DNA of 46,140 nucleotides, taken from contig JAIDSL010000181.1 in the NCBI GenBank assembly GCA_029061255.1, positions 1-46,140 on the forward strand. The letters are read 5' to 3'. The notes beneath the pieces are model-generated. The model did not search any database. It saw only the letters and a program-made list of their open reading frames with translations, and had not been told where the DNA came from. The DNA comes from Muribaculaceae bacterium (GTDB taxonomy: Bacteria; Bacteroidota; Bacteroidia; Bacteroidales; Muribaculaceae). The stretch's first letter is position 1. Each line of letters starts with the position of its first letter. The position numbers and the translations under genes are program-made. Below are positions 2,651 to 37,570 of this stretch, one piece after another.

Positions 2651-3535
2651 ATGCCCATGGATGACAAAATTATCACCGAAATAACTCCACTTTCCGGGAA
2701 AGACTGTTTCTATCTCGTAGACCGATTCAAAGATCGGTTTACGTTTCCTGTACACCGTCACAACGAGTTCGAGCTCAATTTCCTCTCCAACTGTCAGGGT
2801 GCCAGGAGAATTGTCGGTGATTCCATTGAAACCGTCGACACCTGCGACCTTGTGCTTGTCGGACATGGAATAGAACATGGCTGGCTGCAACATGAGTGCT
2901 GTACGCCTGCAATACGCGAGATCACAATACAGTTTTCCGAAGACCTTTTCGGGGATGTGTTCCTCGCCAAAAACCAAATGGCAGGAATACGCAACCTCCT
3001 CATTGAAAGTGCCAACGGAGTAGCCTTCTCCATGGCTACTGTATGGAAAGTGCACTCAAAACTTGAAAAACTTTCCACTACAGAATCAGGCTTCAGGGGA
3101 CTTCTCGATTTCATGGACCTTCTCAACGAGCTTGCAGAACTCGGAGACTATCGTCTGCTCGCAACTTCTTCCTTCGCTTCCGTGAACCCTGCATGCGATA
3201 GCCGTCGCGTACAAAAAGTGCAGGCATATATCGACGAAAATTATCGGCAAGACATACGCCTTGCCGACCTTGCCGACCTTGTTGGTATGACCCCAACCGC
3301 CTTCAGCCGATTCTTCAAGCTTCGTACAGGAAAATCCATATCAGACTACATCATCGATGTACGCCTCGGTCACGCTTCCCGTATGCTCGTAGACTCCACC
3401 ACATCCATAGCCGAAATATGCTACGACTGCGGATTCAACAATATCTCAAACTTCAATCGAATATTCAAAAAGAAAAAGGGACAATCCCCGAAAATCTTCC
3501 GTGATATCTACCAGCACCACAAGAAGCTTATTTGA
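2651..3535 (+). CDS. AraC-family transcriptional regulator
   Basis: The 294-residue protein has an N-terminal cupin-like sensor domain (about 15-110, with HRHNEFEL at 36-43 and GHGIEHGW at 71-78). Its C-terminal AraC DNA-binding domain (about 187-288) carries two helix-turn-helix units: LADLADLVGMTPTAFSRFFK and IAEICYDCGFNNISNFNRIF. No signal peptide or membrane segment is present, so it is a cytoplasmic one-component regulator. A cupin-AraC protein beside carbohydrate genes normally senses a small sugar. Its position next to the GH2/esterase/mannanase arm suggests that it controls that arm, distinct from the HTCS at the far end. ATG 2657 (residue 3) is a possible alternative start. Confidence 0.88.
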   Translation: MPMDDKIITEITPLSGKDCFYLVDRFKDRFTFPVHRHNEFELNFLSNCQGARRIVGDSIETVDTCDLVLVGHGIEHGWLQHECCTPAIREITIQFSEDLFGDVFLAKNQMAGIRNLLIESANGVAFSMATVWKVHSKLEKLSTTESGFRGLLDFMDLLNELAELGDYRLLATSSFASVNPACDSRRVQKVQAYIDENYRQDIRLADLADLVGMTPTAFSRFFKLRTGKSISDYIIDVRLGHASRMLVDSTTSIAEICYDCGFNNISNFNRIFKKKKGQSPKIFRDIYQHHKKLI

Positions 3536-3574
3536 GTCTTGAGTCTTAAGTCTTAAGTATTCAGTTTAGGGTCT

Positions 3575-6166
<2,592 letters not shown>

Positions 6167-6171
6167 TCATC

Positions 6172-7614
6172 ATGAATACCAACCACACAAAATTCATACT
6201 CGCCGCCATGCTTGCCATGACGGCTTTCGGAGGCGCAGCAAAGGTTGAGCTGCCCGACATCATCAGCGACAATGCCGTGCTTCAGCAAAACTCAGATGCG
6301 AAGCTCTGGGGCTGGAGCAAACCGGGGTCATCAGTTGATGTCACCACTTCATGGAACGGAAAGACATATACCACTAAATCTGACAGCAAGACCGGACGCT
6401 GGGAGCTTACTGTCTCAACCCCGGAAGCTTCATTCACTCCGTACTCAATCGAATTCAAAGATGCTGACGGTCCGGTAAAGATCGACAATGTCCTTATTGG
6501 AGAAGTATGGTTCTGCTCCGGACAATCCAATATGGAGATGCCCTTGCGTGGTTTTGGCATACAGCCAATTGAAGGAGCTGCACAAGCAATCGCATACTCC
6601 GGGAAATATCCCGGGATAAGAATGGCAAATATCCCCAAACGTGAGGCATATACACCCCAGGAGAAAGTAGAAGGGAAATGGAATATCTCCAATCCAAAAA
6701 ATGCCGGTGAGTTCTCTGCCCTTGCTTATTTCTTCGCTCAGTCACTGACCGACCTGCTGAATGTGCCGGTCGGTATCATCAACTGCGCTTATGGAGGGTC
6801 AAAAGTGGAGGGTTGGATCCCAAAATGGAAACTCGACTCCTATGAGGGCTGGGATATGGCAGCCGAGGAGAAAAATAAAGATATGGGCGACTGGGAACGC
6901 ATCGGAGTGATGTACAACGCCATGCTAAAGCCTGTGCTTGGCTACACCGTAAAGGGATTTCTCTGGAATCAGGGAGAATCTAATGTAGGGCGTGAGAATG
7001 AATATCCTCAACACCAGAAAGACATGGTGGAAATCTGGCGCGATGAATGGGGTCTTGGCGAGCTTCCGTTCTATTTCGTGGAGCTACCGGGATGGAACTA
7101 TGACAATCCGGAAGCCGACAACGCTGCAAAATTCCGTGAATGCCAGCACAAGGCGGCTGAAATACTCCCCAACAGTGGAATAGTGTGCACCACCGACCTT
7201 GTGTATCCATATGAAGTGCCGGATATCCACGCCCGCAAGAAAAAGGAGATTGGTGAACGCCTCGCTTTTATGGCAGGAGCGCGAACATACGGCATCGAAG
7301 GCATCCCCCACATCTACCCATCCTATAAATCAGTGGAGCTCAAAGGAGACACTGCCGTCCTTACCTTCAACAACGCTATCGGAGGCCTGAATCCAAACAC
7401 CGACCTCCCGGGTTTTGAAGTGGCAGGTGAAGACCAGGTGTTCTATCCCGCAAAAGCTGTTGAAGACTGGAACTGGCCATATACTGTGACGGTATCAAGC
7501 GACAAGGTCAAAGACATCAAGGCCGTGAGATATTGCTTCAAGAACTTTGCCATCGGTCAGCTCAAGGATATGTACGGACTCCCTCTTATACCTTTCCGCA
7601 CTGACAATTGGTGA
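6172..7614 (+). CDS. SGNH-type carbohydrate esterase (sialate O-acetylesterase-like family)
   Basis: The 480-residue protein has a signal peptide (about 1-23) and an SGNH/GDSL esterase fold of the sialate O-acetylesterase (SASA) type. The nucleophile is S119 in SGQSNMEMP, WNQGESN (265-271) is the third conserved block, and D351/H353 in VPDIH complete the triad. A beta-sandwich at 24-108 precedes the catalytic domain, as is usual in this family. Members remove O-acetyl groups from sialic acid or from plant polysaccharides. Because no sialic-acid gene is nearby and every neighbour acts on mannan, I infer that it deacetylates acetyl-(galacto)glucomannan. It runs in the same direction as the GH5 gene 66 bases downstream. 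Confidence 0.85.
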   Translation: MNTNHTKFILAAMLAMTAFGGAAKVELPDIISDNAVLQQNSDAKLWGWSKPGSSVDVTTSWNGKTYTTKSDSKTGRWELTVSTPEASFTPYSIEFKDADGPVKIDNVLIGEVWFCSGQSNMEMPLRGFGIQPIEGAAQAIAYSGKYPGIRMANIPKREAYTPQEKVEGKWNISNPKNAGEFSALAYFFAQSLTDLLNVPVGIINCAYGGSKVEGWIPKWKLDSYEGWDMAAEEKNKDMGDWERIGVMYNAMLKPVLGYTVKGFLWNQGESNVGRENEYPQHQKDMVEIWRDEWGLGELPFYFVELPGWNYDNPEADNAAKFRECQHKAAEILPNSGIVCTTDLVYPYEVPDIHARKKKEIGERLAFMAGARTYGIEGIPHIYPSYKSVELKGDTAVLTFNNAIGGLNPNTDLPGFEVAGEDQVFYPAKAVEDWNWPYTVTVSSDKVKDIKAVRYCFKNFAIGQLKDMYGLPLIPFRTDNW

Positions 7615-7634
7615 CCCCTTAATGCTTAATGCAT

Positions 7635-7671
7635 AATTATATTAGACATAGCTAAGACTCACAATATAATT
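7635..7671. repeat. AT-rich inverted repeat upstream of the GH5 gene
   Basis: Perfect 9-base arms (7635-7643 and 7663-7671) flank a 19-base loop in the gap before the GH5 start at 7681. The arms are A/T only, so a weak hairpin or a protein-binding site are both possible. Confidence 0.4.
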
Positions 7672-7680
7672 CTTCAGGAT

Positions 7681-8991
7681 ATGAGATTTAGGAAATACAT
7701 AGGAATCGCCCTTATGGGTGCAGCCATCATCGGTTCGGCTTGCTCGGGAGGAAAGAAAGCCTCCGAAAAGGAAACTGACAACCAATTCGTAACCGTAAAA
7801 GACGGGGAATTCCATATCGGAGATTCTGTCTACCGATATGTAGGCACCAACTTCTGGTATGGAGCCATCCTCGCCTCCGAGGGGCAGGGGGGCGACCGCG
7901 AACGTCTTGCCCGCGAACTTGACACACTCCAGAGCATCGGCATCAACAACCTGCGTATTCTCGTAGGAGGCGACGGAGAAGAGGGCCTTGCTTCCCACAT
8001 TTCCCCGACACTCCAGAAAAGCCCCGGCGTTTACAACGACACGATCCTCAAAGGCCTCGACTATCTGCTTGACGAACTTGAACGCCGCGATATGAAGGCT
8101 GTGCTCTACCTCAACAATGCCTGGGAATGGAGCGGGGGCTTCTCAACTTATCTCGAATGGGCGGGAGAAGGAAAGGCCGTCAACCCTGCCACCGACGGAT
8201 ACCCTGCCTACATGGCATATGCCGGGAAATTCTCAGTCAATGACTCGGCTCAGAAGCTCGCTGCTGACCATGTCAGGAACATAGTGAGCCGCACAAACAG
8301 CATCACAGGCAAGCCCTACTCTGAATCGCCTGCCATAATGGCTTGGCAGATAGCCAACGAACCTCGCTGTTTTAACCCTGCCAACAAGGAAAGCTTTGCA
8401 AAATGGATAGGAGAGACAGCATCCCTGATCAAGGAAATCGACCCAAATCACCTCGTATCGACAGGCAGCGAAGGGGCATGGGGATGCGAAATGGACATGG
8501 ACCTATGGACACGTATCCACTCTTATCCCGAAGTTGACTACGCTACAATCCATATATGGCCCTACAACTGGAGCTGGGTAAACGGAGAGACCGTAACCGA
8601 CAGTGTAGCAGTCGCATGCCACAACACTTCAGACTATATCAACTCCCACTACGATGCTCTTGGGAAAGCACTTCAAGCCAAGGGAAAAGCATCGAAGCCC
8701 ATCGTGCTTGAAGAATTCGGTTATCCACGTGACGGCATGGCAATAGCACAAGGTTCACCAGTCACCGGACGCGACGCATACTACAACCATGTCTTCTCAG
8801 AGATAAAAGGTGGTGGCAAAATAAAGGGCGCCAATTTCTGGGGCTGGGGCGGACTTGCCCAGCCGGCGCATGAAGTGTGGCAGCCCGGTGATGAGTACAC
8901 CGGCGACCCGGCACAGGAGGCTCAGGGACTAAATTCTGTATTTGCCTCTGACTCCACCACCATCGCCATCATCAAGCAAGCAATACCCTGA
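7681..8991 (+). CDS. GH5 endo-beta-mannanase (subfamily 7-like), probable lipoprotein
   Basis: The 436-residue protein starts with a hydrophobic signal and a lipobox-like GSAC (Cys21; the -3 Gly is atypical). The residues after Cys (SGGKKASEK) lack the acidic surface-export signal, which suggests anchoring on the periplasmic side. The mature N-terminus contains VGTNFWYG, typical of GH5_7 mannanases. Catalytic residues are the acid/base E227 in IANEPR and the nucleophile E345 in LEEFG. HIWPYNW (291-297) carries aromatic residues usual in the mannan cleft. The enzyme would cut beta-1,4-mannan internally. It follows the esterase in the same orientation and precedes a 137-base gap with a large inverted repeat. 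Confidence 0.9.
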   Translation: MRFRKYIGIALMGAAIIGSACSGGKKASEKETDNQFVTVKDGEFHIGDSVYRYVGTNFWYGAILASEGQGGDRERLARELDTLQSIGINNLRILVGGDGEEGLASHISPTLQKSPGVYNDTILKGLDYLLDELERRDMKAVLYLNNAWEWSGGFSTYLEWAGEGKAVNPATDGYPAYMAYAGKFSVNDSAQKLAADHVRNIVSRTNSITGKPYSESPAIMAWQIANEPRCFNPANKESFAKWIGETASLIKEIDPNHLVSTGSEGAWGCEMDMDLWTRIHSYPEVDYATIHIWPYNWSWVNGETVTDSVAVACHNTSDYINSHYDALGKALQAKGKASKPIVLEEFGYPRDGMAIAQGSPVTGRDAYYNHVFSEIKGGGKIKGANFWGWGGLAQPAHEVWQPGDEYTGDPAQEAQGLNSVFASDSTTIAIIKQAIP

Positions 8992-9034
8992 AAAATTCCA
9001 ACCACTTATATTACAAATTTCATTAATTATGTTA

Positions 9035-9098
9035 GAAGTGGGTGGTCGCGAGATTCATCTCAGATTATCTTCACATTTTATCGCGACCACCCTACTTC
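9035..9098. repeat. Long inverted repeat between the GH5 and GH26 genes
   Basis: Arms 9035-9051 and 9081-9098 pair over a 12-bp perfect GC-rich core (9040-9051 with 9081-9092) plus five more pairs after a one-base bulge. The loop is 29 bases. No T-run follows on the plus strand, so a classical terminator is unlikely. An mRNA-stabilising or processing hairpin, or a regulator site, fits better. It occupies most of the gap between 8992 and 9128. Confidence 0.75.
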
Positions 9099-9128
9099 AA
9101 AACTTATAATTATTAATTTAACCAAGAT

Positions 9129-10223
9129 ATGAAATCCAGCATACTCCTATTTGCCACAGCCCTTTTGCTCTCATCGTGCGCAGGCTCAAAAAAAGAAAAA
9201 AATGAAGAACCGACTACCCAGACTCCTGCGGAATCTCTCATTGTAAGACTTGATTCTACTTCCAAGAGTGGCAGATTCTTCTTCGGGCATCATGACGACA
9301 CTGCCTACGGACACGAATGGAAATACGTGCCGGGGAAATCTGACGTAAAGGATGTCACAGGTGAATATCCGGGTCTTATGAACTGGGATCTCGGTATGAT
9401 CGAACTTGATTCAGCCCGCAACCTCGACGGGGTGCCGTTTAAGTTTATATCCGAAGAAATAATTGCCCAAAATGCCCGTGGCGGCATCAACGCCATCAGC
9501 TGGCACTTGCGCAATCCCCTCAGCGGAGGCGACTCTTGGGATGTATCAGCATCTCCTCTACAACAGTTGCAAGAGAATGCCGCGCTGTCAGACACACTTG
9601 ACCTCTGGATAGGAAGGGCGGCAGACTTCATTGCATCGCTCAAGGATGCAGAAGGGAATAATATCCCTGTAATCTTCCGTCCTTGGCATGAGAACACCGG
9701 GACATGGTTCTGGTGGGGTGCCGGCAATTCCACTCCTGAACAATACAAAGACCTTTGGAAACGCACTCGACGCATTTTTGACGAGAAGGGAATCGACAAT
9801 GTAGTATGGGCATATTCTCCCGACCGTGTACCAAATCCGGAACAATATTTCGTGACATATCCCGGTGATGAATACGTAGATATCCTCGGCAGCGACATAT
9901 ATCATTTCGGAGGAGCTGATAATGCAGACCAATACCGCCAATCAGTAAGAGGCTTGCTCCCTTATGTTGCCGAAGAAGCTGCCAAAAGAGGCAAATTGGT
10001 GGCATTCACTGAAACAGGACTCGAAAGCGTAGTCATGGACAATTGGTTTACGGAAGTGCTTCTTCCCCTTGTCAGTGACATTCCTGTAGCATATGTCTGC
10101 GTATGGAGAAATGCCAATCAGGAAGAAAAACCAATGCATTACTATGCCCCATATCCAGGACATCCTGCAGAGGCAGACTTCAAGAAATTTCACGACAATC
10201 CCAAAACTATATTTGTAAAATAA
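9129..10223 (+). CDS. GH26 endo-beta-mannanase lipoprotein (ManA-like)
   Basis: This 364-residue protein has a clean lipobox (LLLSSC, Cys17) followed by AGSKK, without the acidic surface-export signal, so it probably faces the periplasm. It is almost entirely one GH26 barrel. FGHHDD (52-57) opens the domain, the acid/base is E188 in RPWHENTG and the nucleophile is E295 in FTETGLE. WFWWGAG (193-199) is the aromatic stretch after the acid/base that GH26 mannanases share. It begins the run GH26-GH130-transporter-epimerase-GH36, where gaps are 15-25 bases. The first four genes match the B. fragilis mannan catabolic cluster, in which the GH26 releases mannobiose. Confidence 0.93.
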   Translation: MKSSILLFATALLLSSCAGSKKEKNEEPTTQTPAESLIVRLDSTSKSGRFFFGHHDDTAYGHEWKYVPGKSDVKDVTGEYPGLMNWDLGMIELDSARNLDGVPFKFISEEIIAQNARGGINAISWHLRNPLSGGDSWDVSASPLQQLQENAALSDTLDLWIGRAADFIASLKDAEGNNIPVIFRPWHENTGTWFWWGAGNSTPEQYKDLWKRTRRIFDEKGIDNVVWAYSPDRVPNPEQYFVTYPGDEYVDILGSDIYHFGGADNADQYRQSVRGLLPYVAEEAAKRGKLVAFTETGLESVVMDNWFTEVLLPLVSDIPVAYVCVWRNANQEEKPMHYYAPYPGHPAEADFKKFHDNPKTIFVK

Positions 10224-10238
10224 TCTACACTCTGAAAT

Positions 10239-11405
10239 ATGAATACTTTCGAACAGCGCAAAGCCCTTATTCTCGATCGCTATAAAGAACTTATCACCCG
10301 CCCCAACAAGGCAATCGAAGGGAACGGCATATATGAACGATATGAAAATCCGGTTGTGACGGCTGAAATGGTGCCCCCATACTGGAAATATGATTTTGAC
10401 CCCAAAACCAATCCCTATTTTATGGAGAGAATCGGTTGCAATGCCACCCTCAATTCGGGTGCCATAAAATGGGGCGACAAATATGTTATAGTAGTACGTG
10501 TAGAGGGAAGCGACCGCAAATCGTTTTTTGCAGTTGCCGAGAGTCCTACGGGTATCGACAACTTCGTATTCTGGCCTCATCCAATAACACTTCCGGATAC
10601 TGACGACCCTGCTACAAACGTATATGACATGCGTCTGACTCGCCATGAAGACGGCTGGATCTACGGTTTATTCTGCGTAGAACGTCACGACGACTCGAAA
10701 CCGGGCGACCTCTCGGCTGCCACTGCGGCATGCGGCATAGCTCGCACACACGACCTTATAAATTGGGAACGTCTTCCCGACCTCAAGAGCAAATCGCAGC
10801 AACGCAATGTGGTGCTTCATCCAGAATTTGTAGATGGAAAGTATGCTCTCTACACCCGTCCGCAGGATGGATTCATCGATACCGGAAGCGGCGGCGGAAT
10901 CGGTTGGGCTCTCATTGACGACATTTGCCACGCCGAGATAAAGGAAGAAATAATCATCGACCCACGCTACTATCACACCATCAAGGAAGTGAAAAACGGT
11001 GAGGGCCCGCACCCCATAAAGACCGACCGAGGCTGGCTTCATCTCGCCCATGGCGTAAGGGGATGCGCTTCAGGACTCCGCTATGTGCTCTATATGTACA
11101 TGACATCTCTCGATGAGCCTTGGAAAAAAATTGCATCTCCCGGCGGCTACTTTATGGCTCCGGTAGGTGAGGAATATATCGGCGACGTGATGAACGTGCT
11201 CTTCGCCAACGGCTGGATTGCTGATGAAGATGGCAAGGTATTCATCTACTACGCTTCTTCCGACACCCGCATGCATGTGGCTACATCCACTATCGACCGC
11301 CTTGTAGACTATTGCTTCAACACGCCTCAAGACGGACTTACCACAACAGAATCGGTGAAGACACTCAACCGCCTTATCGACAAGAATCTTGCCCTCGGCA
11401 TCTAA
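10239..11405 (+). CDS. GH130 4-O-beta-D-mannosyl-D-glucose phosphorylase
   Basis: This 388-residue cytoplasmic protein has no signal peptide and the length of GH130 subfamily 1. The five-bladed propeller includes [11 protein letters not shown] (72-82) and [10 protein letters not shown] (87-95), and D130 in VYDMRLT corresponds to the catalytic proton donor (D131 in the B. fragilis enzyme). The known reaction is mannosyl-beta-1,4-glucose plus phosphate giving mannose-1-phosphate and glucose. The downstream 2-epimerase supplies that substrate from mannobiose. It sits 15 bases after the GH26 gene and 19 before the transporter. Subfamily 2 enzymes that act directly on mannooligosaccharides are a less likely alternative because of the epimerase in the operon. 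Confidence 0.92.
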
Positions 11406-11424
11406 TTTCAAACCTTAGGATCTT

Positions 11425-12783
11425 ATGGCAAGTATTTCTGAAAAAATTGGCTACGCCCTCGGCGATGCCGCCTCAGGCGGTATCGTATGGAAAATCATGT
11501 CGATAGCCTTCCCGTTCTTCTTCACAAACGCTTTCGGACTCTCACTCGAAGATGCAGCGCTGCTCATGCTCATAGCGCGTCTGTTTGATGTGGTCACCGA
11601 CCCTATCATGGGTAGTCTCGCCGACCGCACCCAGAGCCGCTTTGGCACCTATCGACCTTGGCTTATCTACGGAGCTGTTCCATTTGGCATAGTGTTCGCA
11701 TTTCTGCTCTATACTCCCGACTTTGGACCGGATGGTAAACGAGTGTATGCTTATGCACTCTACCTCCTCATGATGGTGCTCTACACTGCTGTGAACGTTC
11801 CCTACGGTTCTCTGCTTGGCGTAATGACAGAGGATGACAATGAGAAAAACCAGTTTTCAGCCTACCGTATGGTTGGAGCATATGCCATGGGATTCATAAC
11901 GTTGCTGTCATTCCCCTACATCCAGAAGATGATCGGGGGAAATGAAAACGACCCGGTGGTCCTTGCTCATCAATACTCCATCATCGGTGTGATCTTCGGC
12001 ATCATTGCGGCTATCATGACTCTGGCATGTGGACTTATGACGAAGGAACGCCTGAAACCGGTTCGCGCCGAAAAATTCAGTTTCAAGCAGTTTGGTGATC
12101 TGTTCCGAAATAAGCCATGGGTATGCATGACCACCATAAGCATCCTGACCAACTTCTTCAATGGTTTCCGCTATGCTGTGGTAGCTTATATGTTCGACTA
12201 CTGTCTCGACGGAGAAGTCACTTTGGGAAGTTTCATCATCAACTATACTGTCTTTATGGCATTCGGCGAAATCACCTGTATGATTTTCGGAGGAGTCTCG
12301 CCGGTATTCACCAAGTGGGTAGGATCGAAGCGCGGTGCATTCACATGGGCAGCCACAATTTGCTGCGTCACTTCTGTGGTGTTCTTCTTCATTCCCATGA
12401 GCACTTCGTATATATGGTTGATGATAGCAGTCTCTATCATTACATCGGTCGGAGTAGGCATCTATTCACCTCTGCTTTGGTCAATGTATGCCGACGTAGC
12501 TGACTATGCTACACAGAAGAACGGAGTGTCGTCTACAGGTCTTATTTTCTCTTCAGGCACAATGGCACAGAAATTCGGAAGTGCTATCTCAGGTTCACTC
12601 ATAGCAATCCTTCTCGGGCTGGCAGGTGCCACTATGACCGAGATTGACGGCACCACCACTATAAACCCTGAATCAATCACCGCCTCAGTGCGCACCATGA
12701 TCTGGGCACTCTTCTCCCTCTTCCCTGCAGGCATAGCCGCTATCATGGGAATCATGACCTACTTCTTCCCCATAAAGAAGTAA
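11425..12783 (+). CDS. GPH-family (MelB-type) sugar:cation symporter
   Basis: The 452-residue protein has about 12 hydrophobic membrane segments and belongs to the glycoside-pentoside-hexuronide symporters of the major facilitator superfamily. The signature ARLFDVVTDPIMGSLADRT places Asp at residues 55 and 59, the same numbers as the cation-coordinating D55 and D59 of E. coli MelB, so coupling to Na+ or H+ is expected. A second family signature, RFGTYRPWL, follows at about 71-79. By position in the operon (as in the B. fragilis mannan cluster) it should carry mannobiose or short mannooligosaccharides across the inner membrane, feeding the cytoplasmic epimerase and phosphorylase. Confidence 0.92.
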   Translation: MASISEKIGYALGDAASGGIVWKIMSIAFPFFFTNAFGLSLEDAALLMLIARLFDVVTDPIMGSLADRTQSRFGTYRPWLIYGAVPFGIVFAFLLYTPDFGPDGKRVYAYALYLLMMVLYTAVNVPYGSLLGVMTEDDNEKNQFSAYRMVGAYAMGFITLLSFPYIQKMIGGNENDPVVLAHQYSIIGVIFGIIAAIMTLACGLMTKERLKPVRAEKFSFKQFGDLFRNKPWVCMTTISILTNFFNGFRYAVVAYMFDYCLDGEVTLGSFIINYTVFMAFGEITCMIFGGVSPVFTKWVGSKRGAFTWAATICCVTSVVFFFIPMSTSYIWLMIAVSIITSVGVGIYSPLLWSMYADVADYATQKNGVSSTGLIFSSGTMAQKFGSAISGSLIAILLGLAGATMTEIDGTTTINPESITASVRTMIWALFSLFPAGIAAIMGIMTYFFPIKK

Positions 12784-25562: not shown

Positions 25563-25565
25563 GTT

Positions 25566-28349: not shown

Positions 28350-28375
28350 GATTAAATTGAATTCAAGTTATCGGT

Positions 28376-30370
28376 TTACCATCCGGGGTTCTGAAATAGG
28401 CCATAGCCTTTGTTGATTTCGTCTCGGTCAATGGGAGATAGCAACCATTTATTGTCCCAGCTATTACCTTTCCACCATGCCCGCGCATAGAGTGTGATCT
28501 CAGCAGTCTCATAGATAAACTGAGGCCAGACACCGTTCATTTGGCTAAATGGGGTCTCTGTCTTGTCGCCGGTGGCTGGATCCTTAGCATATATAGTCAT
28601 TAGATGAAGCGGTGTATCGAAACATTCCGTTTTCTTGTATCGGATTATATCATAAAGACGATTGTTTTCAAGAGCGAGCTCACATGCACGCTCCCTGAGG
28701 ATTTCATCAATCAGGACATCCTTGTCATTGAGATTCAGCGTACGGTTCACCTTTAGTGACTGCAGTCCTACCCTTGACCTCACTTTGTCTACCTCCTTTA
28801 TGGCACCTTCAAAGTCTCCTGTCTGAGCAAGTGCCTCAGCATATGTCAGATGCATATCTGCCATTCGTAGGTAAGGCCATGAATAACGCTCGTTGCCGAG
28901 GTCGTAGTAATCGAGAGCCCATTTAAATTGGCCGAAGCCATGCTTGTTATAGCCTTGCGGCACGAACCATATAGTGTTGATATCACCACCGACCCAACAG
29001 TCGATAACTTTATCCATGAATGTGTTGTATTCGTTGTTTAGGTTACGCTGAGGCACGAGCATACTTTCGTAAAGGCGTGGATCGCGGCCGGCAAATATGT
29101 CAATGCCTTCAGCATTATCGGTATTATATAAGCGTTGCCCATCGAAATTGCGTCCGTCGGCCCATGGGAACATATTGAACCATTCAAGCGTCGGTGCATG
29201 GCCACCATAGTGTGATACATTGCCTGGGACATTCGAACCCCATTCAAGAAGGTACTCTCCGTCACTGTCACCGGTGCCTAAACCTCGCACCTCGATGATC
29301 TTCTCTGAAGTCTCACGTGAGAAATAGGCAGAACGGAATGCCCGCCTGTAGTCATTTTCCGTTTCTCCGTTCGGCTGAACCAAAGCAAACGGCTGCCCAG
29401 CCGACTCATTCATACGAAAAAACTCCTTGCAGGCATCAAGACACTTATTCCACAAAGACGGATCCTTACGTCCTATCCATACGCGCAAAAGAGGATCTCC
29501 ATCTATTTCCACACCGACCGGAAGTTTCAATTCGCCGTCATACTGGCGGTAGGGAGTTTCATCATTGAAGATCGGACTGGCCACGAATTGCCAGAGTTTA
29601 GCACGCAGCGCGTATGCGCCTCCTTTTGTCAGCCTCCCCCCTTCAGCAGTATAGTCCGTGATTGCAAATGGTATTGTGGGTTCCGCTATGATTTGTGCCA
29701 GCAAATTATCTATGAATTCTGCTGTCTGCTCTACAGTAGCCCTCCCTTCAATTACCTCGCTACTATCGTCGCCAGCACGGGCTGAGAGATGTCCGCCGGA
29801 AAAGTTCTCCCCTGTCTCGTAGGCGTGGTCCACAAGAGGGAGACCTCCGAAGTTTCTAAGGCCGTCATAATATCGCGTAGCTATTATCATCTTCGCCTCG
29901 GCCTTCAAGCGGTCTTTTTCCAACTGCTGCATGCCGGGTACACGGTCGATATTCTCAATAAAGATCCAGCATGCCCTTATAGTGCTCCAAATGCCCTTAC
30001 GCGGACCGGAATCACTGAACGAGAATTTATCGGCCCACTGCTTGCTACTTGCCTCCGTGTGCATCGCCGAGTAGTATTCCTCTATCACGCCCAGCCATCC
30101 TATGGCCGAATGGCATATGTCGCTGATGGCTTCCGGCATAGATGAGTTCATGCAGTTTTTCTGGTCAAACCCGTGATATAAGCCTTTATAAGATTCCCAG
30201 AGAAACATACGGGCGTATTCCGGTTTGGAGAAGATAGTATCGATGGTCACGTCTACACCCGGTTGCTTCTCCAGAAAACCATCGCCCACCGCAATGCTGT
30301 CGACGCATCCTGACAATGCTATGGATGAGAAGATCGCACATGCTATGATATGTCTAATTTTTGTTTTCAT
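28376..30370 (-). CDS. SusD/RagB-family surface lipoprotein (first pair)
   Basis: This 664-residue lipoprotein (ALSGC, Cys22) is at the long end of the SusD range. Typical features are RKGIWSTIRACWIFIENIDRVPGM in the N-terminal helical region, AEAKMIIATRYYDGLRNFGGLPLVD in the TPR core, RMADMHLTYAEALAQTGDFEGAIKEVDKVRSRVGL, and ILRERACELALENNRLYDIIRYKK near the C-terminus (cited here as overlapping short blocks). It is the partner of the full-length SusC that ends four bases upstream. Two unlike SusCD pairs in one operon suggest that they take up differently sized or decorated products of the same glycan. Confidence 0.92.
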   Translation of the reverse strand: MKTKIRHIIACAIFSSIALSGCVDSIAVGDGFLEKQPGVDVTIDTIFSKPEYARMFLWESYKGLYHGFDQKNCMNSSMPEAISDICHSAIGWLGVIEEYYSAMHTEASSKQWADKFSFSDSGPRKGIWSTIRACWIFIENIDRVPGMQQLEKDRLKAEAKMIIATRYYDGLRNFGGLPLVDHAYETGENFSGGHLSARAGDDSSEVIEGRATVEQTAEFIDNLLAQIIAEPTIPFAITDYTAEGGRLTKGGAYALRAKLWQFVASPIFNDETPYRQYDGELKLPVGVEIDGDPLLRVWIGRKDPSLWNKCLDACKEFFRMNESAGQPFALVQPNGETENDYRRAFRSAYFSRETSEKIIEVRGLGTGDSDGEYLLEWGSNVPGNVSHYGGHAPTLEWFNMFPWADGRNFDGQRLYNTDNAEGIDIFAGRDPRLYESMLVPQRNLNNEYNTFMDKVIDCWVGGDINTIWFVPQGYNKHGFGQFKWALDYYDLGNERYSWPYLRMADMHLTYAEALAQTGDFEGAIKEVDKVRSRVGLQSLKVNRTLNLNDKDVLIDEILRERACELALENNRLYDIIRYKKTECFDTPLHLMTIYAKDPATGDKTETPFSQMNGVWPQFIYETAEITLYARAWWKGNSWDNKWLLSPIDRDEINKGYGLFQNPGW

Positions 30371-30374
30371 AACT

Positions 30375-33300
30375 TTAGAAATTTAAGTTGACGCCGAGAT
30401 TGAAAAGGCGTGTGATCGGGTATGTGATCTGACTGGTTGCACTCTCAGGGTCATTGGCCTTGAATTTTGAGAATGACAAGAGGTTATAGCCTGAGAAGTA
30501 TATTCGCAGTGACTGAAGTGCAGGCAGGAACTTAACATTGGTGAAGGAATATCCTATTTCGATATTTTTAAGGCGTATGTAAGAAGCATCTACATAATAG
30601 ATACTCGACGGTAGGGTGTTGTTGCTCTTGCTCATGAACGACAGGCGCGGCAGCGTGGCAGTTTCTGCTGTGGCAGGAGTCCAGCTGTTGTCTGCTATCC
30701 ACTGCAGCATGCCTGAGCGGTTGTTCTGGCCAAACATCTGGCGGTATGGCCAGCTGAGATCACGCGTCACATTGGTAGCCCCTATCCATAGCATGGAGAA
30801 ATCAAGTCCTTTCCATGAGAGGGATGCATTAAGAGAGAATGTATACTCAGGCTGATCGCTGTAGAACATGGCATGCATGTCGTTCTCATCGACGACTCCA
30901 TCACCAGTAAGGTCTGCATACACACAGTCGCCTGCCTTGACATCTACCATCTGCCTTGGCATCTCGACTCCATATACCTTCCTGTAGTGTTCCTCAGTTT
31001 TACCGGGATTGTAGAATTCGAAAAACTCATATCCCCTTCGCTGGCCAACCGGATACCCGATCCCGGAAAGATGCTCGTAAAGCGGAGGCACCTCACCGTT
31101 TTCAATCACCTTATTGCGCGCATAGGCTATGGATGGAGTGATCGAGTATCTGAAATCATTGCCCACATAATCTGACCATGTAAGGGAGACCTCATAACCA
31201 TGGTTTTTCACACGTCCCATATTTACCGATGAAGGTTTCTGCGCTGTGATGCCGGGAAGCATGGATGTATTATCAATCAAGATATCCTTGCGGTTTTCAA
31301 AGAATATGTCGACCGAGCCCTTGAGCTGGCTATTGCCTAAGAGATGGATATCTATACCATAGTTCTGCTTGGTAGCGGTTTCCCATGTCACAAACGGGTT
31401 GCCGGCTGTCTGTTCATATGCAGACCCTGTCCATGTCCCTAAGCCGAAATTATAGCCACCTTCAGGACTCATATAGTAGCTACCGAGAAGGTACAGGAAA
31501 CGTCGGCCATTCATATTGTCATTACCGACCTGCCCTACTGACCCTCTAAGCTTAAGATAGGGTATGACATTCGCCACTGATTCCCAGAATTTCTCATTGG
31601 AGGCTATCCATCCAAGAGAGACAGAAGGGAATGTACCGTAACGGTAACCTTTGGCAAAGTTCTCAGAACCGTTATAGCCGATATTGAAGTCTATGAGATA
31701 TCGCATCTTATAATTGTAAGTGGCACGTCCTACGAGGCCTACATATCCATGCGGAATGTCGTCATAATTACCGGGATAATAGTACTTGCTCTGATTGTAG
31801 AGGAGTAGGGCAGTGACTTCGTGGTCACCGAACTTGTGCGAGTAGTTGAAGCTTGCTTCTGCATACCAGTCGCGGGCAAACCAATAGGATTCCTCGTAGC
31901 CAAGATTCCAAGCATCACCCTTTTTGCTTAGAGCCACTGATCCATCTGGAGTGAGAACGGGTTGATAGGTCACCCCCTCATAGAGTGTACGTCTCTTCTG
32001 CTGGGTATAGCTGCTGTTGTAAGCTCCTTTTATACGGAAATCAAGTCCAGGGGTAAGGGCATCAAGCGAGAGTTTATATATGAGGTCGAAATTCAACACA
32101 TTGGTCGACTGACGGTTATAGCCGCGTCCGTAAAATGAGAAAAGTCCGTCATTGTCGTATTCTCCTACGTACTCCTTATTTGCCACTATTCGTCTTCCCT
32201 CAGAGTCTATGCCGGCCCCGGCAAAGGGTGCCGCACATATGATGCCGTTAAATACCTCGCTTTCTCCCTGGGCCATCTCATACCGGTCTTCGAGACGGCC
32301 ACCGATGTTAATCGAAAGTTCGTTTATGCTTCCGAGAGAGAGATCAACATTGCCACGATAGTTATATCTGTTGTAGCTGAAGTTAGTGTTCTTGTCTTTC
32401 GAGAATGTATTGAAGAGGCCGTCCTGATTCAGCATACCGAGTGATACAAAATACCTTGCTATCTTATTGCCTCCTTTTACCGATACGTTATACTGCTGTT
32501 GAGGAGCTGTCTTTTTCATTACATAGTCTATCCAATTGACATTTGGATAAAGCAACGGCTGGTCGCCATCTTTGAAATGCTGTATGACCTCGGGACTAAA
32601 CCTCAGCATATCCTCGGCGGTCCCATCGCTGCGCTGCGCCTCGTTGTAGAGAGTGGCCCACGTATAAGAGTCTACATTCTTCAAAAATTCAGAAACCTGC
32701 TGAATCCCGAAGGAAGCCGATACACTGATGTCGGTCTTTCCGATATCACCTCGCTTCGTGGTGATGAGAATCACTCCATTTGCTCCACGTACACCAAACA
32801 CAGCGGTAGCGGACGCATCTTTCAATATTGAAATATCCTGCACCTCGTTGGGATCTATTTGGCTGAAGCTGCGTTCGACTCCATCTACAAGTATAAGAGG
32901 ATCTGATCCATTGAACGAACCTACCCCTCGAATCATAATGGTAGGATCATCGCCACCGGGACGACCTGAGTACTGAACCGTTGACACTCCCGGCAGCTTA
33001 CCCGACAGGGCATTTCCTATTGATGCAGCCGGAGATTTCAGCAGTTCCTTTCCGCTGATATTGCTCACAGCACCGGTCATGGTGACCTTTTTTGTTGTGC
33101 CATAGCCAATGACCACGACTTCGTCAAGTGATTCCGAGGATGATTCAAGCACAACATCAATTACAGAGCGGGATTCGACACGCACCTGCTTCGTATCATA
33201 CCCTACATAGGAAAACTCAAGGATAGCGTTTGCCGGTACATCAAGCTTGTAGTATCCGTCAAGATCGGTCACCGTGCCGGTTTTTCCACCCTTGACCATA

Positions 33301-33443
33301 ACCGTTGCCCCGATCAGCACTTCTCCGTCAGTGTCTGTCACTGTTCCAGAAACAGACACTACCGACTGGGCAGATAGAGATTGTGGCATTAACAACAATA
33401 TTGCAAGCCACAACCAGATTCTGAATTTGATTCTTTCTTCCAT
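30375..33443 (-). CDS. SusC-like TonB-dependent outer-membrane transporter, full form (first pair)
   Basis: The 1022-residue protein has a signal peptide (cut after SLSA, about residue 25), a carboxypeptidase-regulatory-like domain (27-100, VSGTVTDTDGEVLIGATV), a TonB box DEVVVIGYGT (107-116), a plug (about 125-235, with IMIRGVGSFNGSDPLILVDG) and a 22-strand barrel ending LGVNLNF. This is the first gene of the minus-strand operon susC-susD-susC-susD-SGBP-GH26-GH59, where gaps are short until the one before GH59. It is divergent from the HTCS gene, the normal arrangement for HTCS-controlled polysaccharide loci. It imports oligosaccharides through the outer membrane. Confidence 0.95.
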   Translation of the reverse strand: MEERIKFRIWLWLAILLLMPQSLSAQSVVSVSGTVTDTDGEVLIGATVMVKGGKTGTVTDLDGYYKLDVPANAILEFSYVGYDTKQVRVESRSVIDVVLESSSESLDEVVVIGYGTTKKVTMTGAVSNISGKELLKSPAASIGNALSGKLPGVSTVQYSGRPGGDDPTIMIRGVGSFNGSDPLILVDGVERSFSQIDPNEVQDISILKDASATAVFGVRGANGVILITTKRGDIGKTDISVSASFGIQQVSEFLKNVDSYTWATLYNEAQRSDGTAEDMLRFSPEVIQHFKDGDQPLLYPNVNWIDYVMKKTAPQQQYNVSVKGGNKIARYFVSLGMLNQDGLFNTFSKDKNTNFSYNRYNYRGNVDLSLGSINELSINIGGRLEDRYEMAQGESEVFNGIICAAPFAGAGIDSEGRRIVANKEYVGEYDNDGLFSFYGRGYNRQSTNVLNFDLIYKLSLDALTPGLDFRIKGAYNSSYTQQKRRTLYEGVTYQPVLTPDGSVALSKKGDAWNLGYEESYWFARDWYAEASFNYSHKFGDHEVTALLLYNQSKYYYPGNYDDIPHGYVGLVGRATYNYKMRYLIDFNIGYNGSENFAKGYRYGTFPSVSLGWIASNEKFWESVANVIPYLKLRGSVGQVGNDNMNGRRFLYLLGSYYMSPEGGYNFGLGTWTGSAYEQTAGNPFVTWETATKQNYGIDIHLLGNSQLKGSVDIFFENRKDILIDNTSMLPGITAQKPSSVNMGRVKNHGYEVSLTWSDYVGNDFRYSITPSIAYARNKVIENGEVPPLYEHLSGIGYPVGQRRGYEFFEFYNPGKTEEHYRKVYGVEMPRQMVDVKAGDCVYADLTGDGVVDENDMHAMFYSDQPEYTFSLNASLSWKGLDFSMLWIGATNVTRDLSWPYRQMFGQNNRSGMLQWIADNSWTPATAETATLPRLSFMSKSNNTLPSSIYYVDASYIRLKNIEIGYSFTNVKFLPALQSLRIYFSGYNLLSFSKFKANDPESATSQITYPITRLFNLGVNLNF

Positions 33444-33500
33444 TATGGTATTTATTGAAATTAGTTTGTCATGATTTATGTCAGGTCCTTATTTGGGTTG

Positions 33501-33508
33501 CAATATTA
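33501..33508 (-). promoter_or_regulatory. Possible -7 box for the susC operon
   Basis: The minus strand reads TAATATTG, one mismatch from TAnnTTTG, about 58 bases upstream of the susC start. An imperfect box without a clear -33 element fits an activator-dependent promoter controlled by the neighbouring HTCS. This is a weak call. Confidence 0.35.
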
Positions 33509-33540
33509 ATAAAGAAATGGCATTAAGGCATTCCCGATTA

Positions 33541-33602
33541 TCCCATTTGTTGTCCTTCAAACAGTTTTGACACATTTGATGATGCAAAATGCATCAAATG
33601 GG
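33541..33602. promoter_or_regulatory. Candidate HTCS operator: repeated CATTTG words
   Basis: TCCCATTTG (33541-33549) is exactly inverted at CAAATGGGA (33594-33602). A further CATTTGATG lies at 33573-33581 and is inverted by CATCAAATG (33592-33600) around an A-rich centre. The elements lie between the divergent susC and HTCS starts, just upstream of the HTCS -7 box, where an AraC-type DNA-binding domain would be expected to bind. Confidence 0.5.
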
Positions 33603-33626
33603 AAGATAACGGAACCATTTTTTTAG

Positions 33627-33635
33627 TAACTTTGC
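33627..33635 (+). promoter_or_regulatory. -7 promoter box for the HTCS gene
   Basis: TAACTTTGC is a perfect TAnnTTTG box ending only six bases before the ATG at 33641. Transcription from it would begin at or next to the start codon, implying a leaderless or nearly leaderless mRNA. No -33 TTTG lies at the normal distance. Confidence 0.55.
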
Positions 33636-33640
33636 ACTAT

Positions 33641-36600
33641 ATGAAAAAGACATTGATCTCATTTGCTTTTATGCTTCTCGCTCTTATGGCAGCAGCGAGA
33701 GGCAACTACATATTCAGGCCACTTACGGCAAACGATGTGATGACTGATAACTATATTCACTCAGTGATGCGGGATCATAACGGCTTTATGTGGGTGGTAA
33801 GCAGTGACGGTATCCATCGCTATGACGGTTTCGAGTATAAATTCTACACAGCTCCAGGAGGACGATATGAAAAGTATTTTCTTCGGGAAGACGCGAAAAA
33901 AATATTGTGGATCCGCACCGGAGAAAATACCTTCATTTACGATAGGGAAAACGACAGTATCTCAGCAGACATAAACAGACACCTTGATGAACCTTCCGAT
34001 GAAAAGCCTCCCAAAGTATATTGCGTAGACCACGACGGGAATCTATGGTATGGTAAATCCGGGAAGTTGGTTTATCTTGAGAGAGTATCTGGAAAGAAGA
34101 CCCTTTTCTCGTCAATAAATTCTGACGACATCCTAAGTTTGGAATGCAGAGGAGACAAGGCCTATATCCTAAATGCCGATGGAACACTGAAACGCATCGA
34201 CCTCAAAAAAAAGACATGCAGCGATGTGATTACAGTAGCATTGTCCAACCATATGCATCATATGCTCTATCTGGATTTTTCGGATACCTTGTGGATTTTC
34301 TCGCCACACTCGTCGATGGATGTTCTGCGCTATTTCGATGAGAGTAGGAAAGAGATTCAGGTTTTCACCGACAACAATAAGAATGCAATAAATTTTGTCA
34401 CAGCTGTTCTTGACGACGGGAGGGGAAATATCTGGATTGGCACTGACAATGCGGGGATTTTGGTATACAGCAAGAAAGACCCATACTTCGTCCATATAAA
34501 ATATGATTCACAAAACCTTTTCTCGATTCCCAGCGACCATATAAACTGTTTTTTTCTCGACACGCAAGACTGCATGTGGGTAGGAACGACAAAACACGGA
34601 GTAGCTTTCACAAGTCTCGACGAAATGGAAATCGAACGCCACACTCTGTCTAATTCCGATGATATAAACAGCATAATGGAAGATAAGGATGGTAATCTAT
34701 GGTTTGGCACCGACGGAAATGGAATATTTCAGATTTCCACCGGCCACGCCATGAATGTCGACTTCCCTGCCAAATTGGTCACGTGCTCATGTGTCGAACC
34801 GAATGGCCGAATATGGTTCGGCACCTACGGTTCAGGGGTCTTTTACAGAGAGGGAGATCACTTCATACCGATGAACTATGTTGTAGATGGTGTGGATCGT
34901 ATGAAAGGTGTGCGATGCATTACAGCCGACACTTTTGGCAACATCTGGGTTGGAACCGTGATGGACGGGCTCTACTGTATAGACAGACATGGCACAGTCA
35001 CTCCGTATGTTGCTGACGATGTAGCCTTGAGATCCAACAGTATCACCTCCCTTCATTGTAGAAATTCACAGAAACTTTATGTCATGACGGCCGATGGCCC
35101 TGCAGTAGTTGATACCTACACCAGAAAAATAAGTCCGTTATCCGACAACGATGCTCTTGCTGACGAGCTCAACATTTTTTCTACCTTTATATATAAAGAC
35201 AGCCGTGGGTTCATATGGCTTGGTGGTGAAAAACATCTTGGTGTATATCTTCCGAAAAGTCATAGGTTTATAAATCTTTCTGACCGGTTTCGGATACACA
35301 ATGAATATGTCAAGGCTATCACAGAAGACGATAACCGCAACATATGGGTCAGCACAAATGCAGGGCTCAGCAACTTGTTCGTAGCCATAAATCCCAGCGA
35401 CAATGAACCTATAATACGCCGGAAAGATTATACCGGGCTGAACGGTATAGAGCCTATCACATTCAATGGGCAGTCAATATGCAAACGCAATGACGGCGAG
35501 ATGATAGTTGGAGGAATTGGTGGCTATGTATCTTTCCGGCCTGATGAGTTTGTGGCGGAACAAAGCGAACACCCTGTCATGTTCACTTCTCTGCTTATCG
35601 ACGACACTCCTGTAGGCATAGGTGAGGAAAGAAACGGCAAGGTCATTCTTGACAGGAACATAGAGTTGCTTGAAAGGATAACTCTTGATTATGCACTCAA
35701 TTCATTTTCGCTTTACGTATCGTGTATGGATTATTCCGACTCTCACAGAAAAGTTATGGCCTACAGACTTCACGATTCTGAAGATTGGGTTGAGCTCGCA
35801 GGGAATAAGATCTCGTTCTCGAAACTGGCACCCGGTGACTACAACCTTCAGGTAAAGGTTTATGACGACAACCATGAAAACACTGGCATCTCAAGCCTTA
35901 AGATACGCATTCGTCCACCAATGTGGCAATCTTCGGGAGCATACGTACTATATGGGCTAATTCTACTTACTACTGTCGGAGGCATCATAATTTATATACG
36001 CCGTAAGGCCCAGTCGAAACTGAAAATGCACGAAATGGAAATGAATTTTGCCAAGCAAAAGGAGCTTGAGGAATCCCAGATGCAATTTTTCACAAATATC
36101 AGCCATGACCTACGCACTCCGCTTTCCCTTATACTTCTACCCCTCAACAAGCTCATGGCAGCAAATAATCTGGATGTCGACACGCGTGAGCAACTGAATA
36201 TGATGCGACGAAACGCAGAGATACTCATGACAGAGGTCAATCAGTTGCTTGATCTGCGCAAGCTCGACAATGGCAAAGCTACCATTCAGCTGACAACCGG
36301 AAATCTAACGGAATTTGTACGCGATATATGTTCGAATTTCGAGCCTTATTCCAAGAACATGGCGGTAGATCTTCACGTGATACTCCCCGACACTCCAATC
36401 ATCCTTGATTTCGACCGCAACAAGATACAGCGTATTCTGATGAATCTGCTCAGCAACGCCTACAAATTCAATCGCAAGAATGGAACTATATCTTTAGAAG
36501 TCAGACAGTCTCTTTCCGGCTCACAGGAAATGGCTCAGATCATAGTCGCCGATACAGGCATAGGGATTAGCAAGTCAGGGAAAGACCATATTTTCGAGCG

Positions 36601-37570
36601 TTTCTTTCAAGAAACTCAAAAGACCGACAATATTGGCAACGGAATTGGTCTGCATATCGTCAAAGAATACGTCAGTATGCACGGTGGCACAATCGAGGTG
36701 TCAGACAACCAACCATACGGAACAGTTTTCACCATCAGTCTACCTATAGATAGGACGGAAGAGGCGGCTCCCCTTCCTAAAGCTTCAGACAATAAAGAGC
36801 CTGACAAATATTCAACTGATACGCTTCCAATCCTCGTGGTGGATGACAACGATGATTTCCGTCAGTTTATAATATCATGCCTTAAGGAAACATATCCTAT
36901 GATATCCGCTTCCAATGGGAAGGAAGCCCTGGCTATATTGGAATCGCAACCTGTGAGTATGGTGATAAGCGATGTTATGATGCCCGTAATGGATGGTCTG
37001 GAGCTTTGCAACAGAATAAAATCCGACATTGCCACTTCACATATTCCTGTGATACTTCTGACAGCCAAAGCCGCCGACGAGCATGTGCTCAACGGACTCC
37101 GGGAAGGAGCCGATGAATATATCACCAAACCCTTCAATCTCGACATACTTATGCTCCGCATCGCGCGTCTGCTCGAGAATAAGGAAAAATCCATACAGAA
37201 ATTCAAGACTGTAGTCGAAGTTAAGCCGAGTGAGATTACCATAAGCACTCTCGACGAGCAGATCATCGAGCGTGCGATTGCAATTGTGGAGAGCAACATT
37301 GACAAGTCAGACTTCTCCGTCGAGCAACTCGGAGAGCAACTCGGACTCAGCCGAAGCCATCTTTACAGAAAACTTATGGCTATCACAGGCATGACTCCTT
37401 TGGAATTCATTCATTCAATAAGAGTAAAGCGAGGCAAACAGCTGTTGGAACAAGGGCAGCTGCCGGTTTCAGAAGTCGCTTTCATGGTAGGTCTCTCCCC
37501 TAAACAGTTTTCAAAATATTTCAAGGATACCTTCGGAGTGCTCCCTTCTGCTTTTAAGCGAAATCTATAG
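33641..37570 (+). CDS. Hybrid two-component system regulator (HTCS)
   Basis: I chose ATG 33641 (1309 residues) over a TTG three codons earlier because the signal sequence MKKTLISFAFMLLALMAAA starts there. Residues 25-680 are a periplasmic double propeller of two-component regulator repeats (D-x-x-G-x-(I/L/M)-W-x-G-T pattern repeated), followed by a Y_Y_Y domain (about 690-755), one membrane helix (about 766-787), a HisKA domain with H822 in ISHDLRTPLS, and a HATPase with VADTGIGIS and GNGIGLHIV. A receiver with D1111 in ISDVMMPVMDG and an AraC-type DNA-binding domain (about 1220-1309) complete it. HTCS proteins bind a specific oligosaccharide in the periplasm and activate the adjacent locus. 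The ligand here is probably a mannan fragment. Confidence 0.95.
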   Translation: MKKTLISFAFMLLALMAAARGNYIFRPLTANDVMTDNYIHSVMRDHNGFMWVVSSDGIHRYDGFEYKFYTAPGGRYEKYFLREDAKKILWIRTGENTFIYDRENDSISADINRHLDEPSDEKPPKVYCVDHDGNLWYGKSGKLVYLERVSGKKTLFSSINSDDILSLECRGDKAYILNADGTLKRIDLKKKTCSDVITVALSNHMHHMLYLDFSDTLWIFSPHSSMDVLRYFDESRKEIQVFTDNNKNAINFVTAVLDDGRGNIWIGTDNAGILVYSKKDPYFVHIKYDSQNLFSIPSDHINCFFLDTQDCMWVGTTKHGVAFTSLDEMEIERHTLSNSDDINSIMEDKDGNLWFGTDGNGIFQISTGHAMNVDFPAKLVTCSCVEPNGRIWFGTYGSGVFYREGDHFIPMNYVVDGVDRMKGVRCITADTFGNIWVGTVMDGLYCIDRHGTVTPYVADDVALRSNSITSLHCRNSQKLYVMTADGPAVVDTYTRKISPLSDNDALADELNIFSTFIYKDSRGFIWLGGEKHLGVYLPKSHRFINLSDRFRIHNEYVKAITEDDNRNIWVSTNAGLSNLFVAINPSDNEPIIRRKDYTGLNGIEPITFNGQSICKRNDGEMIVGGIGGYVSFRPDEFVAEQSEHPVMFTSLLIDDTPVGIGEERNGKVILDRNIELLERITLDYALNSFSLYVSCMDYSDSHRKVMAYRLHDSEDWVELAGNKISFSKLAPGDYNLQVKVYDDNHENTGISSLKIRIRPPMWQSSGAYVLYGLILLTTVGGIIIYIRRKAQSKLKMHEMEMNFAKQKELEESQMQFFTNISHDLRTPLSLILLPLNKLMAANNLDVDTREQLNMMRRNAEILMTEVNQLLDLRKLDNGKATIQLTTGNLTEFVRDICSNFEPYSKNMAVDLHVILPDTPIILDFDRNKIQRILMNLLSNAYKFNRKNGTISLEVRQSLSGSQEMAQIIVADTGIGISKSGKDHIFERFFQETQKTDNIGNGIGLHIVKEYVSMHGGTIEVSDNQPYGTVFTISLPIDRTEEAAPLPKASDNKEPDKYSTDTLPILVVDDNDDFRQFIISCLKETYPMISASNGKEALAILESQPVSMVISDVMMPVMDGLELCNRIKSDIATSHIPVILLTAKAADEHVLNGLREGADEYITKPFNLDILMLRIARLLENKEKSIQKFKTVVEVKPSEITISTLDEQIIERAIAIVESNIDKSDFSVEQLGEQLGLSRSHLYRKLMAITGMTPLEFIHSIRVKRGKQLLEQGQLPVSEVAFMVGLSPKQFSKYFKDTFGVLPSAFKRNL

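Follow-up and report, generated by a model that had tools for sequence, protein, structure and literature searches.

What does an enzyme of glycoside hydrolase (GH) family 59 do in a locus for mannan? To address this question, we analyzed a 46,140-nucleotide stretch of DNA from a Muribaculaceae bacterium (contig JAIDSL010000181.1 of assembly GCA_029061255.1, C92 in our numbering; hereafter the window), whose genome comprises 3.66 Mb in 228 contigs and is 86.6% complete. Judged by its SusC/D genes, the window contains a Bacteroidota-type glycan-utilization locus, which runs from an AraC-family regulator at 2651 to a hybrid two-component regulator at 37570 and combines the features of a beta-mannan polysaccharide utilization locus (PUL): two SusC/D pairs, two GH26 genes, and a GH130_1 gene together with an epimerase and a symporter. 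The mannan pathway as such is already known, and what is new here is the variant that bears GH59. We consider it reasonably likely that this two-armed locus serves a branched glucomannan or galactoglucomannan from which GH59 removes terminal beta-linked galactose.

Linkage of GH59 to mannan genes

The key enzyme, a putative exo-beta-galactosidase of GH59 (18104..20197, minus strand; PF02057, E 2.5e-79; galactocerebrosidase 4ccc, E 2.3e-74), is encoded directly downstream of a GH26 lipoprotein of the BoMan26B-like endo-mannanase type (20334..21722, minus; PF02156; 6hf2/6hf4, E 3.3e-61; lipobox). A scan of a species-genome collection confirmed 167 GH59 relatives, and we compared the loci of the best 80 of these 167 with flanks of up to 10 kb that were often shorter, so that all linkage counts are lower bounds. 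Neighbors were accepted at identities of at least 45% for GH130, at least 35% for the epimerase, and at least 40% for AraC and GH2. A separate GH26, GH130, or epimerase gene was found in the flank of 36 of the 80 loci; by gene, the flanks contained GH26 in 33 loci, the epimerase in 22, GH130 in 20, AraC in 18, the GPH symporter in 16, GH36 in 14, and GH5_7 in one, and the AraC relatives of the window regulator adjoin the epimerase in many GH59-mannan loci. Moreover, GH59 and GH26 are fused in a single frame in 22 of the 80 loci (Pfam confirmed all six frames sent), 20 times with a C-terminal GH26 like that at 9129-10223 and twice with an N-terminal GH26 like that at 20334-21722. The 36 loci with a separate gene and two linked through fusion alone (L097 and L102) add up to 38 linked loci. 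Because relatives in some gut and rumen bacteria are fused to a mannan-cutting enzyme, GH59 probably trims galactose caps from the mannan of leafy plants and fruit. Every one of the 38 linked loci belongs to the 60 with identities from about 63% upward, and the remaining 20 contain no linked locus; this border was chosen after the ranking was known. It is important to point out that GH59 loci share ancestry, which Fisher and binomial values disregard; these values are not taken as proof, and the 38 linked loci are a pattern in related sequences, not independent events.

Several calls in this comparison were corrected or carry a caveat. Local profiles gave 23 fusions and 39 linked loci, but Pfam shows no GH26 in L096, which was dropped as a fusion and is still labeled mannan in the tree and residue counts below. 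The fused frame of L091 includes only about 160 residues of GH26, with more GH26 in the next frame. The local-profile AraC label also matches hybrid regulators, and an apparent GH59~AraC frame in L099 is profile noise; these labels were left unused. In L089 and L134, open reading frame picking overlooked GH59, and an overlapping frame displaced GH130 in L176 and L186.

The company of GH59 extends to side-chain enzymes. GH36 lies directly downstream of GH59 in 12 of the 80 loci, and in five loci a GH26 type like that in the GH59 fusions is joined to a GH27 alpha-galactosidase (confirmed by Pfam in all three sent). GH59 and GH130 occur together in 20 loci, of which 16 contain GH36 or GH27 and 16 encode an AXE1-type esterase, whereas 20 GH130 loci from the window's family (from 20 of the 49 other genomes that matched, for the most part those with the highest scores), none with GH59, include one with GH36 and four with the esterases sought, SASA among them. 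This contrast is only suggestive, as the two groups differ in taxon, a point that tells against our reading. Across the 38 linked loci, we observed AXE1 in 22, an alpha-galactosidase in 21, cellulase-type GH5 in seven, and GH3 in six, a company that fits a branched, acetylated glucomannan. Reading of the loci distinguished five arrangements: GH26 and GH59 as neighbors, GH26-GH59, GH59-GH26, GH26/GH59/GH26-esterase/GH27-GH26, and GH26 on the opposite strand. A distant GH59 from a separate search (L046, 51%) accompanies SusC/D and GH26, but stands beside GH78-type and GH35-like genes. As side observations, GH26-GH27 fusions are located at L103:14419-16656, L084:12965-15196, and L073:17872-20178; L057:4189-6495 is a GH26 fused to an AXE1 acetylesterase; and L168:6427-8865 is a GH94 phosphorylase gene between two GH26 genes in a GH130 mannan locus of the window's family.

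Other genomes also bear on the relation between the two arms. Prevotella sp. P6B1 (L098) has SusC-SusD-SusC-SusD-SGBP-GH26~GH59-GH27-GH26 (SGBP, surface glycan-binding protein), in which the minus-arm order of the window recurs, with the first SusC cut by the edge of the stretch and identities to the window of 40% for SusD1, 46% for SusC2, and 52% for SusD2. In six metagenome-assembled genomes named Bacteroidales, Bacteroidaceae, or Prevotellaceae (L060, L063, L068, L075, L077, and L090), GH59 occurs with the plus-side genes, namely epimerase, AraC, GH36, GH130, and GPH. Linked in this way by GH59, the two arms are suggested to be one system; among the loci compared, the two arms were found together on one stretch in no genome but this one.

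The GH59 protein and its proposed substrate

The window GH59 contains the domains PF02057, PF17387, and PF21708, and its similarity to 4ccc spans 609 residues. Mammalian galactocerebrosidase (GALC; 4ccc, 3zr5), lost in humans with Krabbe disease, is about 31% identical to it and has the fold, the catalytic residues, and part of the galactose pocket in common with it; the aglycone of the window enzyme would be a sugar, whereas GALC acts on a ceramide aglycone. The acid/base and nucleophile glutamates (E174 and E258) are present and conserved throughout, in 81 of 81 close and five of five distant GH59s. Residues G48, T93, W135, E182, and E258 of mouse GALC, whose roles have been described (PMC4445328), are likewise kept in 81/81 close GH59s, G48, T93, and W135 regardless of whether the setting is mannan or xylan-like. 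Three of the galactose contacts of GALC (G48, T93, W135, S261, and R380) are kept in the window GH59, and two are changed.

Eudicot primary-wall beta-galactoglucomannan (beta-GGM) was defined in 2022 (PMC9614514), and its side chains are beta-1,2-Gal-alpha-1,6-Gal (PMC9614514; PMC10735049; from here on, cited papers are represented by the accessible parts of their text). Oligosaccharides with these caps are unchanged by alpha-galactosidase, and beta-galactosidase converts them to uncapped ones (PMC9614514; PMC10735049). We propose that, in the periplasm, GH59 would take off the beta-linked galactose that ends a side chain (most likely a Gal-beta-1,2 residue attached to the alpha-1,6-Gal branch), and that this would expose alpha-galactose for GH36, an order that matches the behavior of the capped oligosaccharides. 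The first-pass annotation of this DNA had named beta-GGM as the possible substrate, and GH59, plant chemistry, and the relatives in which GH3, GH5, and acetylesterases join the locus speak for it; the GH2 of the locus lends it no support, and acetylated galactoglucomannan generally fits too.

A number of observations weigh against a galactose-removing GH59 in a galactoglucomannan locus. In the pocket, the window GH59 has a valine in place of S261 of GALC and a shortened R380 loop, in which a lysine is aligned with R380; 17 of 81 close GH59s have an arginine there. No mannan gene is shown in 42 of the 80 GH59 loci, though many contigs end nearby; SASA, the acetylesterase type of the window, was found by local profiles in none of the 80. 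Family searches found no beta-glucosidase family in the window, though the Glc-Man repeat of beta-GGM should need one; GH3 has six matches elsewhere in the genome and is present in only six of the 38 linked loci. Acetylation is described for acetylated galactoglucomannan rather than beta-GGM (PMC10735049). Lastly, of the 297 genomes in the window's family, this one alone carries a strong GH59 match, and the end branch of its GH59 is long (0.44 vs a median of 0.11), so that the gene may be a recent import.

The wider distribution of GH59 is sparse. Weak, partial PF02057 matches in 42 other family genomes (43/297 including our own; best E 6e-12) were judged to be GH30-like clan relatives and rejected. 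Protein searches found GH59 in 10 of 393 genomes of an order sample and three of 395 of a phylum sample, our own included in each; the nearest of these (64% identical; L044/L045) carries none of the mannan genes on the stretches retrieved, and the single hit of a plasmid search was a Kitasatospora record (33%). In the GH59 tree, the window belongs to a 52-row set (support 88) of 39 mannan-labeled rows, including the window and L096, one xylan-like row, and 12 unlabeled rows, and seven of eight xylan-like rows fall outside it. The GH59 matches of L078 and L085 have an in-frame stop and were excluded from the tree and residue counts.

The xylan-like setting is defined by GH115, which occurs in seven of the 41 GH59 loci that local profiles call unlinked (L062, L078, L080, L087, L105, L114, and L130; Pfam-confirmed in L062, from Phocaeicola plebeius DSM 17135, and in L114, by local profile in the other five), some of them with GH43 or GH51. 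Alpha-L-arabinopyranose resembles beta-D-galactose, having the same ring configuration. In Arabidopsis primary-wall xylan, a pentose, probably alpha-L-arabinopyranose, is 1,2-linked to the glucuronic acid (GlcA) branch (PMC4528235). Because GH59 lies near GH115, xylan GlcA carries a pentose cap, and the two sugars are alike, we tentatively raise the possibility, which we think rather less probable than its opposite, that this GH59 clade removes caps from two hemicelluloses of eudicot primary walls, taking the outermost 1,2-linked branch-blocking sugar with one pocket. In mannan loci, GH59 would then remove beta-1,2-Gal from alpha-Gal branches ahead of GH36/GH27, and in GH115/GH43/GH51 loci it would remove the 1,2-linked pentose, probably alpha-L-arabinopyranose, from GlcA branches ahead of GH115.

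Layout of the locus and rival roles

The first-pass annotation had placed the mannan pathway (GH26, GH130, symporter, and 2-epimerase) in one locus with GH36, GH2, GH59, and an acetylesterase, and all of these families were indeed found. The minus-strand arm runs in the order SusC, SusD, SusC, SusD, SGBP-position lipoprotein, GH26, and GH59. Its first pair is formed by a SusC-like (30375..33443; TIGR04056, 921.7 bits) and a SusD-like protein (28376..30370; PF07980), its second by a SusC-like (25566..28349; TIGR04056, 567.7 bits) and a SusD-like protein (23832..25562; PF07980), followed by the SGBP-position lipoprotein (21719..23809). This surface arm, with its lipoprotein GH26, would cut the polysaccharide and import oligosaccharides that bear their side chains. 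The plus-strand arm consists of a SASA-type acetylesterase (6172..7614; PF03629; carbohydrate esterase FI8, 9h4u, E 7.4e-74; signal peptide by eye), a GH5_7-like exo-beta-mannosidase or mannanase (7681..8991; best match 1uuq MAN5A, E 1.4e-90; NEP and EEFG motifs), a BoMan26A/CjMan26C-like GH26 lipoprotein (9129..10223; PF02156; 4zxo, E 7e-98; 2vx4, E 5.3e-72; lipobox LSSC), a GH130_1-type 4-O-beta-mannosyl-glucose phosphorylase without a signal peptide (10239..11405; 3was, E 1.2e-202, 676.5 bits), a GPH-family sugar:cation symporter (11425..12783; TIGR00792, 258.7 bits, cut-off 231.35), a mannobiose/cellobiose 2-epimerase-like protein (12809..14059; PF07221; NF041848, 308.2 bits, under the cut-off of 800), and a GH36 alpha-galactosidase (14078..16282; PF02065, E 2.1e-114; KWD and SDN motifs; signal peptide by eye). 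We take 1uuq to be Man5A of Cellvibrio mixtus and 3was to come from Bacteroides fragilis, and the GH5_7 subfamily label of 7681-8991 is likewise our assumption. Along this arm, the SASA esterase would deacetylate, the second GH26 and the GH5_7-like enzyme would cleave the bare backbone, and the GPH symporter would take in Man-Man and Man-Glc; the epimerase would convert Man-Man to Man-Glc, which GH130_1 would then phosphorolyse.

The group of GH130_1, epimerase, and symporter recurs in relatives' loci. Two of the three GH26 matches in the genome lie inside the window; given these three, the chance of a GH26 in a 22-kb stretch is about 1.8%, against 33 of the 80 GH59 loci with a separate GH26 gene. 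Since the loci are related, the comparison is no formal test. The regulators at the two ends are both on the plus strand (AraC, 2651..3535, PF12833; hybrid two-component regulator, 33632..37570, with Reg_prop, HisKA, HATPase_c, Response_reg, and HTH_18). Between the arms, an AAA-ATPase/PDDEXK_9 gene (16388..17950, minus) looks like an unrelated insertion. Between 3400 and 38700, a search for inverted repeats turned up three weak pairs, and none of them resembles a boundary.

The rival reading that survives best is an ordinary galactomannan or acetylated glucomannan locus in which GH59 and GH2 are passengers acting on arabinogalactan, pectin side chains, galactolipids, or similar beta-galactosides. 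It gains from the GH59 loci called unlinked, including those with GH115, from mannan loci of Bacteroides ovatus (PMC5217682) and Bacteroides cellulosilyticus (PMC13276840) that are described, in the accessible text, without a beta-galactosidase, and from the GH2 beta-galactosidase, which diverges from the plus-strand arm (GalA type, 3575..6010, minus; NCBIfam NF041462, 1012.7 bits, cut-off 900; the frame 3575-6136(-) opens at 6136, and a signal peptide would place the start near 6010). Relatives of this GH2 were found in 13 other genomes of the window's family (149 searched, own included; 53-79% identity), and GH26 and GH130 are absent from all 13 of their loci (7.9 to 19.9 kb each); in the closest relative (L201, 79%), GH2 is paired with GH36. 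No GH2 of at least 40% identity occurs in the flanks of the 80 GH59 loci, and GH2_N matches number 14 in the genome, of which 13, the window GH2 included, exceed the cut-off. On these grounds, GH2 is not supported as a specific part of the mannan system; it is probably a general beta-galactosidase. For GH59, the passenger explanation is unlikely, as 22 GH59/GH26 fusions in two orders and runs of GH59-GH36-GH130 are hard to account for.

That GH2 and GH59 both act on beta-GGM, for example on different oligosaccharide sizes, was the proposal of the first-pass annotation, and we find it more doubtful still. GH2 adjoins the mannan operon divergently, and all 14 family genomes with this GH2, our own included, are also listed as GH130_1 carriers, a co-occurrence that mildly favors it; the loci of its relatives, in which GH2 pairs at its nearest with GH36, and the flanks of GH59 argue the other way. 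Of the proposed pair, the GH59 half is supported by its neighborhood, the fusions, GH36 downstream, and the partly kept pocket, and the GH2 half is not supported. Least probable is a GH59 that has drifted to another backbone exo-activity, such as beta-glucosidase or beta-mannosidase, and fills the missing glucose-removing step: the loss of S261 and the R380 loop, a window in which GH3 was not found, and predicted-fold neighbors after GALC that are GH30 xylanases and glucosidases fit it, but G48, T93, and W135 are conserved in all 81 close GH59s, and linked loci that have GH3 too mean that GH59 and GH3 are no simple replacement for each other.

The SGBP-position protein has three C-terminal repeats of about 100 residues each and no Pfam family, and none of its solved relatives scores better than E 0.013. 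Modules related to these repeats sit inside the GH26 frame of family mannan loci L172 and L173 (E about 2e-4); CBM112 is described as modules inside a GH26 frame (PMC13357471), and by architecture only the protein is CBM112-like. Elsewhere in the window, 37679-38671(-) encodes a secreted-looking 330-residue protein without a Pfam family that is weakly similar to the repeats (E 2.65e-5). At the window's edges lie PorX, a type IX secretion response regulator with a PglZ domain (131-1669(+); NF052313, 797.9 bits), and a run that by reading resembles a sigma factor, a FecR-like protein, and a TonB-dependent receptor (40727-44892(+)).

Known systems and what the finding would mean

The galactomannan PUL of B. 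ovatus (bacova_02087-02097; PMC5217682) has two GH26, GH36, SusC/D, and a hybrid two-component regulator in common with the window, and its genes labeled isomerase, symporter, and mannoglucosyl phosphorylase parallel window genes; one SusC and one SusD are named, with no GH5_7 or acetylesterase in the accessible description. BcMUL of B. cellulosilyticus shares GH26A, GH26B, GH5_7, GH130_1, an MFS transporter, and an esterase with the window and differs in having GH5_2, GH3, and CE7, and neither 'beta-galactosidase' nor 'GH59' appears in the accessible text (PMC13276840). PUL32 of B. cellulosilyticus strain WH2 is described without GH36, unlike the window (PMC13357471). The mannobiose pathway of B. 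fragilis (GH26, epimerase, and mannosylglucose phosphorylase; PMC13276840) has an intracellular logic like that of the window, whose GH130 is a clear homolog of the solved mannosylglucose phosphorylase, but is described there without side-chain enzymes. Bxy_22780 of B. xylanisolvens, which hydrolyses beta-1,2-galactobiose and also belongs to a Bacteroides PUL, is a GH35 in a locus with GH144, and mannan is unmentioned in the accessible text (PMC11739564). In a paper on S. copri, the sole mention of a beta-galactosidase in the part available concerns a GH1 enzyme of another species (PMC12704710), and a salmon feed study uses the beta-galactoglucomannan name for an acetylated feed fiber (PMC11511968). 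Among the matches listed, papers on beta-galactoglucomannan gave no bacterial enzyme system for beta-galactose caps, and the open-access literature, to which the search was confined with subscription papers outside its scope, gave nothing evidently on GH59 with mannan, GH26, GH115, Bacteroides, or galactoglucomannan.

If our reading is true, GH59, a family discussed mainly as galactosylceramidase, would gain a dietary-fiber role in gut and rumen bacteria. GH59-GH26 fusions would then be usable as tools for wall analysis, and GH59 within a mannan locus would be a marker of eudicot mannan use.

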